Of a stretch of DNA of 64,000 bases, positions 43,908 to 55,672 are shown one piece after another. Position 1 is the first letter of the stretch. Each line of letters opens with the position of its first letter. This DNA comes from Novosphingobium sp. ZN18A2 (GTDB taxonomy: Bacteria > Pseudomonadota > Alphaproteobacteria > Sphingomonadales > Sphingomonadaceae), in NCBI RefSeq assembly GCF_036784765.1, contig NZ_CP136651.1, forward strand, positions 1 to 64,000, given 5' to 3'. A program made the translations under genes and the position numbers. Below the pieces are notes generated by a model. That model had not been told where the DNA came from and made no database searches. It saw nothing but the letters and a program-made list of their open reading frames with translations.

Positions 43908-43967
43908 TGTGGCGCCCCTTTGCCGGAGGCGGGGGGCATATCGAAATTTAACCAGAAAGGATCGTGG

Positions 43968-45876: not shown

Positions 45877-45915
45877 TCCCCCCGTTTTTCCCATTCTTCG
45901 CAGAAAGGACCACCA

Positions 45916-49322: not shown

Positions 49323-49890
49323 ACTCGATACCCTGGTGATCGGTGTGCGCGCCGATACGCAGGGCTTCACTTCGGACGTGCAGGCGATGCGCGGCAGTTT
49401 CGATTCGATCCTGGTCGACGGTTTCTCGCGCGCCGGCAACACGCTTGAACGCGGCCTGACGGCGGCAATCCGCAAGGGCAGCCTCGGCTTCGAGGACTTG
49501 CGCCGCGTGGCGCTTGGCGTGCTGGGCGACATTGCATCGCGGGCGGTTTCGGCCGGTCTTGGTTCGTTGGGGTTGGGATCGATGACCGGAGCGGGCGGCG
49601 TCGCCGGCGGCCTTGGCGCGCTGGCCGGCTCTATCCTCGGCCTGCCGGGCCGCGCGACGGGCGGACCGGTTACACCCGGTCGCGGATACGTGGTGGGCGA
49701 ACGCGGGCCGGAACTGTTCGTGCCCACGTCTGCGGGCCGCGTGGAAGCGGGCGCGCCCACCGCCGCCGCGCGCAACGTGAACGTGGCGATCAAGGTGGTG
49801 GCGCCGGCAGGCTCCTCCACGCCCGAAAGCCTTAAGCGGTCCAGCCGCCAGGTCGCGCAGGCGGTTCGCCGCGCGCTCGCCGAGTATTGA
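49315..49890 (+). CDS. Short tail tape measure protein (gp11)
   Basis: A 191-aa tape measure protein, very short because GTA tails are short. It has an N-terminal helical stretch (MDELDTLVIGVRADTQGFTSDVQAMRGSFDSIL), a Gly/Ala/Leu-rich hydrophobic segment (about 85-125), and the GxxYVVGERGPELFVPTSAGRV motif common to lambda-type tape measure C-termini. It is coupled to the preceding chaperone gene. Confidence 0.88.
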   Translation: MDELDTLVIGVRADTQGFTSDVQAMRGSFDSILVDGFSRAGNTLERGLTAAIRKGSLGFEDLRRVALGVLGDIASRAVSAGLGSLGLGSMTGAGGVAGGLGALAGSILGLPGRATGGPVTPGRGYVVGERGPELFVPTSAGRVEAGAPTAAARNVNVAIKVVAPAGSSTPESLKRSSRQVAQAVRRALAEY

Positions 49891-49904
49891 GGGAGGGCAC
49901 CGAC

Positions 49905-52241
49905 ATGGCATTCTGGCTGGCCGATACGCGCACCGTCCAGCAGGCGGACGCGATCCAGCGCTTCGACCCGCGCTTCTGGACGGTCGATTTCCCGCGTCCG
50001 GCCATGGCCGCGCTGACCACGACCGCACCCGACGCGCTGCGCGTCGACGCGATATTCCGCTCGGCCGGAGACATCGTCGGCCTGATCTGGGAAAGCGAGG
50101 ACCGGTGGGACCATCCGCTGCTGTCCTATGAGACCGTGCGCGACTATTCGCGCCTCACGCTTTCGTTTCGCTGGCGTTCGTCGGGCGTGATCGCGCTCGA
50201 CGCGGTGAACGGCCCGACATTGACCATAGAGGGCCGCGATGCGGCGGGCCAGCCGCGCAGCTGGTATGTGCGTTTGTGGAACTATGCGCAGGGATCGGCC
50301 GAAGACGCGCTGGTTTCCCTGCCGTTTTCGGCGCTGGACGGCGGGTTCCTGCTGCCGGGCGAGGCCGATCCCGTCCACCCCGGGGATATCGACCGGATGT
50401 TCATATCGCTTGTCGCGCCGGGGTTCGTTCCAGGGTCGGACAGCGCTTTTCCGGCTGAATGCCAAAGCTGGGCCGAATTGTCGGACATCCGCTGCGAAGG
50501 CCATGCGCCCATGCTGGAAATCGGCGACGTGATGGTGCTGCCGCACGGGCTTGCGATGGCGACCGGGTATGACGACGCCTATAATCAGGCGCCGGCACGC
50601 CTGCTGCGCCAGATCCGCGGCCTCGGCTATCGCGGGACGATCAACCATTACATCGGCATGAGCCACTTCTTCCCGCTGGCACCTGACGGAGCGGGCGGCT
50701 TCGCGGTCGATCCCGCACTTACGCCGGTCAATGCCGCAAGCGAGGCGTGGCACCGCGACTTCCTCGACCGCGCCAAAGCGGCGGGCTTCGACGTTATCCT
50801 CTCGCAGTCTTACGAAGTGCTGGCGCAACATTGCCCCACGACGTGGCAACAGCGCGACAGCGATGGCAACGCGGCACGCACCGGCTGGACCCCGCCATCC
50901 GCATTGCTTTCCCCTGCCAATACCGATGCGACGGGCTGGCTGGCCAGTCTTGCCGGAACGCTTGCGGGGTGGCTTGCCGATGCGGGCCTGCCGGTGCGCT
51001 GGCAGGTTGGCGAACCGTGGTGGTGGATCACGCCCGACCGCAGGATATGCCTATACGACGATGCGGCACGAACCGCGTTTGGCGGAAGCCCGCCCGTCAT
51101 CGCCGACCTTGGTCAGCCGCTGACGCCCGGCCAGCGCGATCTTCTCGATCAGGCAGGCGCGCTTCTTTCCGCATCGACCGCCGCGCTTTGCGCCACCGTG
51201 CGCGAGACGGCGGGAGCAGCGGGGGCGGAAACGCTTCTGCTCGCCTACCTGCCGACCGTGCTCGACCCGGCGATGCCCGACGCGCGGCGCGCCAACCTGC
51301 CAGCCGGATGGGCCTCCCCCGCGTTCGACGTGCTCCAGACAGAGGATTACGGCTGGGTTACCGCAGGTGCCGATGCACTGCGCAAGACGGGGCGCGAGGC
51401 GATAGAGGCGCGGCTGGGCTATCCGCGCGACCGGCAGCACTATCTGTCCGGCTTCGTGCTTTCCGCGGACGATGCCGAAAAGCACTGGCCGCGCATCGAT
51501 GCCGCCGCCAGCGAAGCGCGCCGCCTGGGTGTGGCGCAGACCTTTATCTGGGCCTTGCCGCAAGTCGCACGTGACGGCTTTACCCGCCTGCCATCCTTAA
51601 AGGACAACGCCATGCAAGCCTTCGACGATGTGCTGTTTCCGGTCGCGCTGGGAAGCAGGGCCTCCGTGACGCCCGAATTTTCAACCAGCGTCACAGTGTC
51701 CGCTTCGGGGTTCGAACGGCGCAACAGCCTGTGGACCGATGCCCGTCTGCGTTTCGATGCCGGGCCGGGCATCCGGTCTGAGGTAGAACTGGGTGAACTC
51801 ATCGCCTTCTTCCGCGCGCGGCGCGGCCAGGCGCGCGGATTCCGCCTGCGCGACCCGTCCGATTTCAGCTCCTGTGCGATGACGGGGACGCCCGGCCCGA
51901 TCGACCAGTCAATCGGCATTGGCGACGGCGCGACCGCACGCTTCGAACTGGCCAAGCTCTATGGCGAAGGCGCCGACGCGCAACGCCGCCGCATTACGCG
52001 GCCAAGGGCGGAATCGGTGCAGGTAAGCGTTGACGGCGTCCCGACGGATGGCTTCGTGCTGGAACCGCTGGGCGTGATCGCATTCGATACGCCGCCGCCC
52101 GATGGTGCGGCCATACGGGCGGGCTTCCTGTTCGATGTGCCGGTGCGCTTCGCGGAAGACACGCTGGACATCGCGGGGACGGTTTTCGCGGCGGGCGAAG
52201 CGCCCAGCGTGCCGCTGGTCGAACTGCGCGAGGATGCCTGA
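49905..52241 (+). CDS. Fusion: sheath/TIM-barrel-like domain plus DUF2460 distal tail protein (gp12)
   Basis: A 778-aa protein in the gp12 slot; Rhodobacter GTA gp12 is only about 200 aa. Residues 570-778 are the normal DUF2460 distal-tail domain (MQAFDDVLFPVALGSRASVTPEFSTSV). Residues 1-569 are extra: a beta-rich part (VNGPTLTIEGRDAAGQPRSWYVRLWNYAQG) and a TIM-barrel-like part (about 215-560) with PHGLAMATGYDDAYNQAPARLLRQIRGLGYRG and FLDRAKAAGFDVILSQSYEVL, resembling the non-contractile tail sheath family. GAGGGAGG precedes the ATG. AAAGGA and an in-frame ATG at 51612 sit exactly at the junction. Confidence 0.88.
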   Translation: MAFWLADTRTVQQADAIQRFDPRFWTVDFPRPAMAALTTTAPDALRVDAIFRSAGDIVGLIWESEDRWDHPLLSYETVRDYSRLTLSFRWRSSGVIALDAVNGPTLTIEGRDAAGQPRSWYVRLWNYAQGSAEDALVSLPFSALDGGFLLPGEADPVHPGDIDRMFISLVAPGFVPGSDSAFPAECQSWAELSDIRCEGHAPMLEIGDVMVLPHGLAMATGYDDAYNQAPARLLRQIRGLGYRGTINHYIGMSHFFPLAPDGAGGFAVDPALTPVNAASEAWHRDFLDRAKAAGFDVILSQSYEVLAQHCPTTWQQRDSDGNAARTGWTPPSALLSPANTDATGWLASLAGTLAGWLADAGLPVRWQVGEPWWWITPDRRICLYDDAARTAFGGSPPVIADLGQPLTPGQRDLLDQAGALLSASTAALCATVRETAGAAGAETLLLAYLPTVLDPAMPDARRANLPAGWASPAFDVLQTEDYGWVTAGADALRKTGREAIEARLGYPRDRQHYLSGFVLSADDAEKHWPRIDAAASEARRLGVAQTFIWALPQVARDGFTRLPSLKDNAMQAFDDVLFPVALGSRASVTPEFSTSVTVSASGFERRNSLWTDARLRFDAGPGIRSEVELGELIAFFRARRGQARGFRLRDPSDFSSCAMTGTPGPIDQSIGIGDGATARFELAKLYGEGADAQRRRITRPRAESVQVSVDGVPTDGFVLEPLGVIAFDTPPPDGAAIRAGFLFDVPVRFAEDTLDIAGTVFAAGEAPSVPLVELREDA
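51599..51614 (+). promoter_or_regulatory. Internal Shine-Dalgarno and ATG at the gp12 domain junction
   Basis: AAAGGA (51599-51604), 7-nt spacing and ATG (51612-51614) in frame with the large gp12 gene. The portal and capsid genes use the same AAAGGA with 6-nt spacing. The preceding codon TTA is rare in this GC-rich genome, consistent with selection for the site. It would yield a separate 209-aa DUF2460 protein. Confidence 0.55.
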
Positions 52242-52242
52242 G

Positions 52243-53064
52243 ATGGCGCGGCAGTGGCTTTCCCGGGAGCTTGAAACCGTCGCAACGTGGTGGCGCATCG
52301 AACGGACCGACGGCGTTGCGCTCGGCTTCACCAGCCACGACCGCGACCTGTATGTTTCGGGAATCGTCCTGCGCGCCGCACCGGGCATGGTGCCAAGCGC
52401 GGTGCGCCTGACCGGCGGGCTGGACGCGGACAGCGCCGATATAACCGGCGCGCTGACCCACGATGCGATCTCCAAAGCCGATCTCGATTCGGGCCGATAC
52501 GACGGCGCGCGCATCGCGATGGGGCTGGTGGACTGGGAATCGCTGGAAACCTTGCAGATATATGCAGGAACGATCGGTTCGGTCGGGCGCGAAGGTGCCG
52601 GATTTTCAGCACAGTTGCGTTCGGCCAAGACCGCGCTCGAACGCGAGATCGTGCCCCGGACCGCACCGACCTGCCGGGCCGAGTTCTGCGCAGGCGGCTG
52701 CACGCTTTCGGCCGGGCGCTTCACGCACGAAGGGCGCCTGGCCTCCGTCTCGGACGACAGGTCGGCCGTTACCGTTACAGCGCAGATCGAAGCGAACCTG
52801 CTCGAATTCGGCACGCTGCGTTGGGTGGACGGCCCCGAAGCGGGAATGACCCGCCGGATAGAGGCCGTCTCGGGTGACGTGCTGATGCTCGACAGGCCGG
52901 TTGAAGCAGGCGCCACGCCGGGCGCACGCCTGATCCTGCGGGAAGGTTGCGATCACACGCTGGAAACCTGCGGCGCGCGTTTCGGCAATGCCGCGAATTT
53001 CCAGGGCGAACCGTTCCTGCCCGGCAACGACCTGCTGACCCGCTATCCTTCGCCCGCCGCATGA
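52243..53064 (+). CDS. GTA baseplate hub protein (gp13, DUF2163)
   Basis: A 273-aa hub protein with an N-terminal DUF2163 domain (WWRIERTDGVALGFTSHDRDLYVSGIVLRAAPGM) and the C-terminal phage BR0599 domain. Cysteines C144, C149, C153, C236 and C243 (TCRAEFCAGGC and GCDHTLETCGARF) match the set known to bind an Fe-S cluster in the Rhodobacter GTA hub. The C-terminal NAANFQGEPFLPGND is conserved. The gene starts 1 bp after gp12 and overlaps gp14 by 4 bp. Confidence 0.92.
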   Translation: MARQWLSRELETVATWWRIERTDGVALGFTSHDRDLYVSGIVLRAAPGMVPSAVRLTGGLDADSADITGALTHDAISKADLDSGRYDGARIAMGLVDWESLETLQIYAGTIGSVGREGAGFSAQLRSAKTALEREIVPRTAPTCRAEFCAGGCTLSAGRFTHEGRLASVSDDRSAVTVTAQIEANLLEFGTLRWVDGPEAGMTRRIEAVSGDVLMLDRPVEAGATPGARLILREGCDHTLETCGARFGNAANFQGEPFLPGNDLLTRYPSPAA

Positions 53065-53489
53065 ATCCGGCACTTGCCGAGGCCGCGCTCGGCCTGGTCG
53101 GCACACCGTTCCGGCTGCACGGGCGCGATCCGTCCATCGGTCTCGATTGCGTGGGACTGGTTGGCGAAGCCATGCGACGCGCGGGCTTCGATCCCAGCCT
53201 TCCCGAAGGCTATCGCCTGCGCGTGCAATCGGTGGCGCGATGGCTTCGCCTTGCCGCAACCAGCGGGCTGGTTCCCGTGGCCCGGGACGGCGACGTGATC
53301 CTGCTGCGCACGCATCCGTTGCAGCCCCACCTTGCCGTGATCGTGCCGGGCGGCATCGTCCACGCCCATGCCGGGCTTGGCCGGACGACATTCCTGCCCG
53401 GCCCGATCCCCTGGCCGGTTGAGCGCCGCTGGCGGGCCGCACCGGCCGAAACGATCCAAACGGAGACCCGACGACAATGGCTACGCTGA
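53061..53489 (+). CDS. GTA NlpC/P60 cell-wall peptidase (gp14)
   Basis: A 142-aa NlpC/P60-type cysteine peptidase of the tail tip. The catalytic Cys30 lies in GLDCVGLVGEA and His90 in LQPHLAVIVPGGIVHAHAG. It should cut peptidoglycan of the recipient during DNA delivery. The start overlaps the gp13 stop (ATGA) and its end overlaps gp15 by 13 bp. Confidence 0.92.
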   Translation: MNPALAEAALGLVGTPFRLHGRDPSIGLDCVGLVGEAMRRAGFDPSLPEGYRLRVQSVARWLRLAATSGLVPVARDGDVILLRTHPLQPHLAVIVPGGIVHAHAGLGRTTFLPGPIPWPVERRWRAAPAETIQTETRRQWLR

Positions 53490-55672
53490 TCCTTTCCGCC
53501 GTCGGCACGGCGATCGGTGGCCCGGTTGGCGGCGCGATCGGCGCGCTGATCGGGCGCCAGGTCGACAGTGCAATCATCGGTGCGCCCCATCGCGAAGGAC
53601 CGCGCCTGAAAGACCTTGCCGTGCAGACGTCAAGCTATGGCGCGCCCCTGCCGCTCCATTTCGGCAGGATGCGGGCTGCGGGCACCGTGATCTGGGCAAC
53701 CGAACTGGTGGAGCACAGCGAACGGCAGGGCGGTGGCAAGGGCCGCCCTTCGGTTACGGCCTACAGCTATACCGCATCATTCGCGGTAGCCCTTGCCAGC
53801 CGGCCGATCGCACGGATCGGGCGCGTCTGGGCCGATGGCAACCTGCTGCGCGGCGAAGCGGGCGACCTGAAAGCGGGCGGAACCATGCGGGTTCATACCG
53901 GCCATGGCGACCAGCGCGTGGACCCGCTCATCGTGCAAGCCGAAGGTGCGGCGAACTGTCCTGCCTTCCGTCATACGGCCTATGCCGTGTTCGAAGACCT
54001 GGAACTGGCGGATTTCGGGAACAGGCTTCCGTCCCTGACATTCGAGGTTTTCGCCGACGACGACGATTGTACGCTTGCCCGGATCGTGCGAGCCATCGCA
54101 CCCCAGGTCGATTGCGAGAACATGGACGCGGCAATTGCGGGCTTCACCATCGATTCCGGCCGCGCAGTGGACACGCTTTCAACCCTTTCGAACGCATTTG
54201 CGCTGGCCGTGGCGCTGGATGGCAACCGCATCGCCGTGTCGATGGCAGGCGCGTCCGCGAATACCCTGCCGATGCTGGACATGCCCGTGGCCGGCGGTGC
54301 GCAAGCCGACACCGTGCAGCAGACGGGCTGGAGCAGGCAGCGCAGCCCGCTGCCCGAAGCGCGGCAGGCGGGGCTTCGCTATTACGATCCGGCGCGCGAC
54401 TACCAGCCCGGCCTCCAGCGAAGCCCGGGGCGCGCGGCGCCAGGCGATCTTGCCGTCATCGATCTGCCCGCAGCCATGTCCGCGGCGAAGGCACGCACAC
54501 TTGCCGGCACGGTTGCCCGGCGCGCGGCATACCCGGCAGACCGCATCCGCTATCGCGTCGGCACCATAGACCCGGCAATCCGCCCCGGAGCATGCGTTCG
54601 CCTGCCGGTTGCCGCCGGAACCTGGCAAGTGGATAGCTGGGAATGGCAAGCAGGCGGGGTAATGCTCGATCTGCGGGCCGTGCCGGGCAACGCCGGTTCC
54701 GGCAAATCCATCGCCGATCCGGGTCGCGCCAACCTGCCGTTGGACGAACCCGTCCCGCCCACCGTGCTCGACGCGTTCGAGGTTCCGTGGGACGGAACCG
54801 GCGGAGGCAACGCCCCGTCCCTTTTCGCGGCAGCCAGCGCCGTTTCCGCAGCCTGGCGCGGTGCAGCGTTGTTCGCGCAGCAATCGGCGGACAGCCTGGT
54901 GCCCCTTGGTTCGACCGGAAGGCAACGCGCAATAACGGGCACCGCGCTCGGCGCATTGCCTGCTTCGTCGCCGCTCCTCCTCGACCGGTCGAGCCGTCTT
55001 GTCGTCCGGCTTTCCGCCGTGGATCTCGATCTGGCGCCAACGGATCTGGCCGGGCTGGTGCGGGGCGGCAACCGTGCGATGATCGGCGATGAAATCGTCC
55101 AGTTCGCCCGGTGCGAACCGCTTGGCGACGGTTGCTTCGCGCTTTCGGGCCTGCTGCGCGGCCGGGGCGGAACCGAATGGGCCATCGGCAACCACCAGTC
55201 GGGCGATCCTTTCGTGCTGCTCGACAATGCGCTTGTGCCGCTCGATCCGGCGGCAGTAGGGGAAGCGACCGTCGCTACGATCCTTGCAACCGGGCTGGGT
55301 GACGGAAACCCCGCGCAAAGCGCGATCCGGTCGGCGGGCGCAACGCTCCGCCCGCTGGCCCCGGTCCACGGCAAGGCAGCCAAAGCGCCTGACGGCAGCC
55401 TGCATGCCAGCTGGATACGGCGCGCGCGCGGCGCATGGGGCTGGCCCGACTACGCGGACCTGCCGCTGAACGAAACAAGAGAAATCTGGGATATCGCGTT
55501 CGGCGATCCGGCTGCACCGCTGGCGCGCTGGCGAACGGCCGAAGCGGTTCTGGATCTCTCGCCGGAAACGGCCCAGCCCCTTCTCGGGAGCGAAGCGCCG
55601 CGCCGCCTGACCATCCGCCAGATCGGCAGCGTCAGTGCATCGCACCCGCTGACGATCGAGATTGCAGCCTGA
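53477..55672 (+). CDS. GTA tail tip host-contact protein (gp15, megatron-like)
   Basis: A 731-aa protein beginning with a glycine-rich hydrophobic segment (AVGTAIGGPVGGAIGALIGRQVD) and followed by the conserved phage-tail block KDLAVQTSSYGAPLPLHFGRMRAAGTVIWATEL, TAYSYTASFAVALASRPIARIGRVWADGNLL. Later parts include fibronectin-like or receptor regions. In the Rhodobacter GTA the homologue (1304 aa) is called megatron. Here the protein is shorter, so host-contact domains are probably reduced. Confidence 0.9.
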   Translation: MATLILSAVGTAIGGPVGGAIGALIGRQVDSAIIGAPHREGPRLKDLAVQTSSYGAPLPLHFGRMRAAGTVIWATELVEHSERQGGGKGRPSVTAYSYTASFAVALASRPIARIGRVWADGNLLRGEAGDLKAGGTMRVHTGHGDQRVDPLIVQAEGAANCPAFRHTAYAVFEDLELADFGNRLPSLTFEVFADDDDCTLARIVRAIAPQVDCENMDAAIAGFTIDSGRAVDTLSTLSNAFALAVALDGNRIAVSMAGASANTLPMLDMPVAGGAQADTVQQTGWSRQRSPLPEARQAGLRYYDPARDYQPGLQRSPGRAAPGDLAVIDLPAAMSAAKARTLAGTVARRAAYPADRIRYRVGTIDPAIRPGACVRLPVAAGTWQVDSWEWQAGGVMLDLRAVPGNAGSGKSIADPGRANLPLDEPVPPTVLDAFEVPWDGTGGGNAPSLFAAASAVSAAWRGAALFAQQSADSLVPLGSTGRQRAITGTALGALPASSPLLLDRSSRLVVRLSAVDLDLAPTDLAGLVRGGNRAMIGDEIVQFARCEPLGDGCFALSGLLRGRGGTEWAIGNHQSGDPFVLLDNALVPLDPAAVGEATVATILATGLGDGNPAQSAIRSAGATLRPLAPVHGKAAKAPDGSLHASWIRRARGAWGWPDYADLPLNETREIWDIAFGDPAAPLARWRTAEAVLDLSPETAQPLLGSEAPRRLTIRQIGSVSASHPLTIEIAA

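Follow-up and report, generated by a model that had tools for sequence, protein, structure and literature searches.

Gene content of the gp12 locus

The window analysed here, a stretch of 64,000 nucleotides from Novosphingobium sp. ZN18A2, contains an RcGTA-type head–tail cluster at about 42.1–55.7 kb, in which genes for an HK97-type portal, prohead protease, major capsid, head–tail connector, tail tube protein, Dit, hub and a shortened megatron were identified. Assignment to the RcGTA type requires the conserved cluster including g12, g13 and g15, and this was met (TIGR02217, TIGR02218). The name rests on gene content and order only, as inferred from sequence alone, and does not imply packaging of random host DNA. 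Within the cluster, the gp12 locus and its neighbours are arranged as follows.

49889–49897, + strand: Shine–Dalgarno sequence GAGGGAGGG of the full-length start (ATG 49905), pairing −12.6 kcal/mol
49905–52241, + strand: NCTSP–Dit fusion gene of 778 aa at the gp12 locus, a single open frame across 202 homologues
49953–50525, + strand: NCTSP_N domain, residues 17–207 (Pfam PF23844, E = 1.7e-97)
50541–51581, + strand: TIM-barrel_NCTSP domain, residues 213–559 (Pfam PF23845, E = 9e-160; Foldseek match to phage N4 gp64, 30% identity)
51582–51611, + strand: linker of variable length, 9–21 residues among homologues, disordered in the structural model (pLDDT <50 at residues 566–571)
51599–51604, + strand: internal Shine–Dalgarno sequence AAAGGA; the site is Shine–Dalgarno-like in 202/202 homologues and stronger than in synonymous shuffles
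51612–51614, + strand: internal start codon ATG at residue 570; ATG, GTG or TTG in 199/202 at this column and in two more one codon later
51612–52241, + strand: predicted second product, free Dit (gp12) of 209 aa (TIGR02217/DUF2460)
52243–53064, + strand: baseplate hub gp13, the next gene, beginning just past the Dit stop (TGAGATG; TIGR02218, E = 9e-56)
53477–55672, + strand: gp15 megatron of 731 aa without the peripheral/GTA_TIM domain (NF048004 below cut-off, in two stretches)

Both domains that define the N4-type sheath family, NCTSP_N and TIM-barrel_NCTSP, are thus present in the N-terminal part of the fusion, while DUF2460 occupies residues 574–775 by Pfam and TIGR02217 residues 572–775, which places the internal site at the domain junction. 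The full-length start is itself well supported: 201 homologues have a start there, 94% with a Shine–Dalgarno sequence of its own, at a mean pairing of −7.3 kcal/mol. There is no second DUF2460 gene elsewhere in the genome; free Dit could therefore come only from the internal site. One base separates the stop codon of Dit from the start codon of the hub (52238–52245), and internal initiation may also lift translation of the hub.

An AlphaFold2 model of the fusion had a pLDDT of 87.5; confidence was high for the NCTSP domains and for the greater part of Dit, and the disordered segment lay exactly around the internal start. Foldseek matched the N-terminal part to the tail sheath of phage N4 (gp64/gp65) and the C-terminal part to the Dit of phage R4C. 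In a dual-initiation gene the C-terminal product should be a complete domain; here it would contain the whole of DUF2460/TIGR02217, and the junction falls in a disordered linker, so that this property is met.

The two halves have separate relatives. The C-terminal 204 residues belong to the same family as Rcc01695, the g12 product of Rhodobacter capsulatus (TIGR02217, DUF2460; phmmer E = 9.5e-44 to 6tba), which occupies the same place in its cluster and has the same beginning to within one position, RcGTA residue 2 aligning with fusion residue 572. Rcc01695, however, is a free protein of 210 aa with its own gene, whereas the Novosphingobium Dit forms the C-terminal end of the 778-aa fusion, whose frame contains an internal start. 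The N-terminal 560 residues share their Pfam families with N4 gp65/gp64 and their fold with gp64, but N4 is a podophage in which two separate sheath proteins surround the tail tube, while in Novosphingobium Dit carries a short module.

A preliminary description of the locus, made without database searches, had pointed to the sequence AAAGGA followed after 7 nt (CAACGCC) by an in-frame ATG at 51612, residue 570 of the frame opening at ATG 49905, and had placed this site at the beginning of the DUF2460 domain; both statements held. So did the claim that AAAGGA also precedes the portal and capsid genes (at 43956, ATG 43968, and at 45904, ATG 45916, each with a spacing of 6 nt), and the claim that a rare TTA codon precedes the site. 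Only two TTA codons occur among the 377 Leu codons of the cluster genes; at the junction, TTA supplies the first A of AAAGGA.

Conservation of the fusion frame and of the internal start site

Conservation was assessed in 202 distinct fusion genes of Sphingomonadales, drawn from the family, the order and named genomes, with 42–77% identity to the gene of the window. Two sequences were left out for in-frame stops, at 527 and 656, outside the linker. No homologue has a stop in the linker, at any of its lengths of 9–21 residues, and none has a frameshift between the halves; one point mutation would be enough to split the fusion into two genes. The fusion reading frame is conserved together with the internal start. 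The fusion and free Dit both appear to be under selection, an inference made without protein data and from sequence alone. Outside Sphingomonadales, Dit is usually encoded by its own gene of ∼210 aa, which begins at the junction point. A few genomes (G150, G134, G738, G778 and G018) have a break of the frame within Dit, at about residues 600–650, through either decay or assembly error; such a break would cost both products.

At the position of residue 570 the alignment has ATG in 116 homologues, GTG in 77, TTG in 6 and another codon in the remaining 3. Two of these exceptional homologues have ATG or TTG one codon downstream, which brings the number with a start codon to 201/202. A conserved in-frame start inside a longer frame is expected of a dual-initiation gene, and this was met (199/202, or 201/202 with the one-codon shift). 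The sole copy without a start codon, that of Pontixanthobacter aquaemixtae (L127, 6001–8313), has kept the fusion and has AAG at the junction; it is counter-evidence to dual initiation and a natural experiment on the need for free Dit. Among 70 further genes from IMG/VR, the junction codon was ATG in 63 and GTG in 7.

The third base of the junction codon is informative because Met, Val and Leu swap freely at this column. Every junction Val is encoded by GTG (77/77), as compared with a background of 53%, and every junction Leu by TTG (6/6), as compared with 13%. When the set was thinned to <70% identity, Val was still always GTG (35/35; naive p = 3e-10), and the junction was the only column without exception among 77 Val-containing columns. 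On a FastTree protein tree from which the linker had been excluded, parsimony required at least 38 state changes at the junction codon. The codon p-values ignore residual relatedness, a concern that the thinning and the switch count make minor.

The internal start might be a fossil: a once-separate gp12 could have been fused by loss of the upstream stop, its old start not yet having decayed. In favour of this, a standalone Dit is usual outside Sphingomonadales. Nevertheless, start codon and Shine–Dalgarno sequence have both persisted in 201/202 homologues despite wide codon divergence at these protein identities, and drift cannot explain 77 GTG Val codons. We consider a fossil start to be practically ruled out.

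The strength of Shine–Dalgarno pairing was measured for nucleotides −18 to −5 against the 3′ tail of 16S rRNA. The mean was −8.7 kcal/mol, with 202/202 homologues at or below −4, while synonymous codon shuffles gave −6.5 kcal/mol with a shuffle SD of 0.16, so that the observed pairing is stronger by about 14 shuffle SDs. The core GG spans a codon boundary in 165 homologues and lies in codon phase 0 in 33; since it occurs in two codon phases, it is the DNA that has been kept rather than one amino-acid pair. In the thinned set G is found at −9 relative to the start in 95/98 and A at −8 in 91/98, and the spacing from Shine–Dalgarno sequence to start is mostly 4–8 nt among homologues. A scan for a start codon combined with a Shine–Dalgarno sequence over 2,283 codon/frame positions in the 202 homologues found the junction in 98.5%, the runner-up reaching 59%. 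We reject Shine–Dalgarno strength by itself as evidence, as residues 376–378 score similarly owing to invariant Trp codons.

These data bear on the possibility that the appearance of a ribosome-binding site arises from amino-acid constraints alone, through an acidic, E/D-rich linker followed by Met or Val. GAG and GAA are indeed purine-rich, and the synonymous shuffles still reach the pairing given above. Nevertheless, the observed value lies far beyond the shuffles, the core occurs in two codon phases, and only GTG is used for Val and only TTG for Leu, leaving next to no room for this explanation. A dual-initiation gene should have a properly spaced ribosome-binding site that amino acids do not explain, and this too was met.

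The mRNA is also weakly structured here. The 60 nt surrounding the junction have a folding energy of −11.2 kcal/mol, as compared with −20.5 kcal/mol elsewhere in the gene and with −13.7 kcal/mol for synonymous shuffles of the same stretch (p = 5e-12). A Shine–Dalgarno-like sequence could instead act as a ribosome pause that aids stepwise folding of the domains without any initiation, a proposal supported by the location of the site between two domains, where the linker is disordered, and by a Shine–Dalgarno strength above synonymous expectation. A pause, however, needs no start codon, yet ATG, GTG or TTG has been kept at the correct spacing through the ≥38 codon switches, and the low local mRNA structure is that seen at true starts. 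Pausing alone is therefore a very improbable account. We conclude that the internal site is not due to chance: start codon, Shine–Dalgarno sequence, spacing and low mRNA structure are all conserved.

The conservation check suggested by the preliminary description was thus run and passed, a start and a Shine–Dalgarno sequence being present at the junction in 201/202 relatives at a divergence of 23–58%. What is conserved is not the letters AAAGGA as such; the site of the window, at −5.7 kcal/mol, is a weak form of an AGGAG-type site that is stronger in most homologues (mean −8.7 kcal/mol).

The shortened megatron and other partners of the NCTSP module

The gp15 of the window does not meet the test for a full-length megatron, scoring 373 bits against NF048004 in two stretches, as compared with an equivalog cut-off of 800 bits. 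The GTA_TIM domain (PF13547) was not found in the genome of the window or in any of the sampled Sphingomonadales genomes (0/151), and was found in 19/190 genomes of the class. The NCTSP TIM barrel is therefore present where GTA_TIM is absent, and at most a functional replacement is possible. We do not claim that the GTA_TIM domain moved from the megatron to Dit, as there is no detectable kinship between it and the NCTSP TIM barrel (hhalign probability 0.3%).

The NCTSP module is joined to differing neighbour proteins in different genomes. In another alphaproteobacterium (L219, 2305–5004) and in the phage contigs L336–L343 it is fused to the hub gp13, as confirmed with Pfam for L219 and L338, and in L219 Dit is a separate gene. 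Acinetobacter phage IMEAB3 (L233:4001–6712) has a similar gene order and an NCTSP fusion whose C-terminal part has no Pfam match. The hub fusions thus resemble the gp12 fusion in carrying the same module at the N-terminus of a neighbouring tail protein, but their partner is the hub and not Dit (L219, L338). No consistent start with a Shine–Dalgarno sequence was found at the junction of the NCTSP–hub and IMEAB3 fusions, a modest control of ten loci, two of them near-identical. We infer that the internal start goes specifically with the Dit fusion.

Proposed dual initiation and the tail-tip ring

The data make it very likely that gp12 of the Sphingomonadales RcGTA-type GTA is a dual-initiation gene, from which both the 778-aa fusion and free Dit are made, both for use in the tail-tip ring. 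The two products and their use are inferred, there being no ribosome profiling or proteomics data. Initiation at 49905 would yield the 778-aa protein, an N4-type sheath module joined through a flexible linker to the distal tail protein, and initiation at 51612 would yield the 209-aa distal tail protein alone. Production of both the 778-aa fusion and a free gp12 of 209 aa had been proposed in the preliminary description; the proposal is supported, and is by far the best explanation of the data, although no protein data exist.

One alternative accepts internal initiation but assigns it another purpose: the internal start would chiefly bring ribosomes to the last part of the operon, that is to Dit and, via TGAGATG, to the hub gp13, free Dit being a surplus rather than a partner in the ring. 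Coupling is plausible, as the gp13 start lies one base past the Dit stop, and g12–g15 have low translational adaptation in published codon-adaptation data (PMC9765227). Against this, the hub could instead acquire a stronger start site of its own, and the conserved start lies exactly where classical Dit begins, giving a complete Dit and not merely any convenient frame. We regard operon supply as an unlikely main role, though less remote than the other alternatives considered above.

Dual initiation with both products in the ring agrees with what is known of related tail tips. In RcGTA, Dit is a hexamer that touches the baseplate through its N-terminal Ala2; odd Dit subunits contact the hub and even ones the megatron, which resolves the 6:3 mismatch (PMC7296036). 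In phage R4C, six Dit subunits occur with three of the hub and three of the megatron (PMC10276861). We propose that fused and free Dit would both enter the six-subunit ring, so that the sheath/TIM-barrel module would be carried on only some of the six positions. With 560 residues on every Dit N-terminus all six positions would be loaded, and free Dit would leave some unloaded; fusions to the hub would by nature carry three modules. The sheath module may have a role in binding a receptor, by analogy with N4 gp65, which binds the receptor NfrA (PMC12892993). The earlier suggestion that the gene could set the proportion of sheathed and plain subunits at the tail tip is plausible and agrees with the RcGTA geometry, a Dit hexamer and a trimeric baseplate; it remains an inference.

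On a bolder reading, sheath-bearing and plain Dit would alternate 3:3, fitting the sixfold tail to the threefold baseplate, with the sheath/TIM module replacing the TIM-containing peripheral domain that the megatron lacks. Taken as a whole we would lean against it. The 3:3 ring is the arrangement we favour, but it is unproven and the least certain step of the mechanism. The homologous sheath of phage N4 is sixfold (PMC12633501); six fused Dit per ring could therefore fit, and it is possible that free Dit serves otherwise.

The principle of an internal in-frame start that yields a full-length protein and its C-terminal domain is known from SctQ/Spa33 and Cas8/Cas11. In SctQ (Spa33/YscQ/HrcQ), as inferred for the gp12 fusion, one gene with an internal in-frame start specifies the full-length protein and a free C-terminal domain; both SctQ products are required and assemble with one another, in Spa33 at a ratio of 1:2 (PMC4832279). 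The proteins are unrelated, however, and SctQ belongs to the cytosolic sorting platform of type III secretion, not to a phage-like tail. The small subunit Cas11b is likewise made from an in-frame start that lies within the gene of the large subunit (PMC11899642), its protein and function again being unrelated. Use of this principle at a tail tip, order-wide in GTAs, was found undescribed: no earlier description of an internal start in Dit or a GTA was found in the open-licence literature searched, and the bearing passages of GTA comparative papers do not mention one.

If the inference is correct, a virus-like particle that is conserved across a whole bacterial order has a second product that had escaped description, and this gives a simple, testable route for matching a sixfold tail with a threefold baseplate. 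It would also support the view that Sphingomonadales GTAs are under selection for correct assembly. Current annotation, which records one DUF2460 protein of 770–780 aa, would overlook half of the output of the gene.

Records that match the fusion are numerous outside the cellular genomes. The IMG/VR contigs L236–L315 match it, with at least 598 confirmed stretches, as does MT840053.1 (L235), a GenBank ‘Bacteriophage sp.’ from human faeces. The matching IMG/VR contigs of about 13–15 kb resemble GTA clusters that have been catalogued as viruses.
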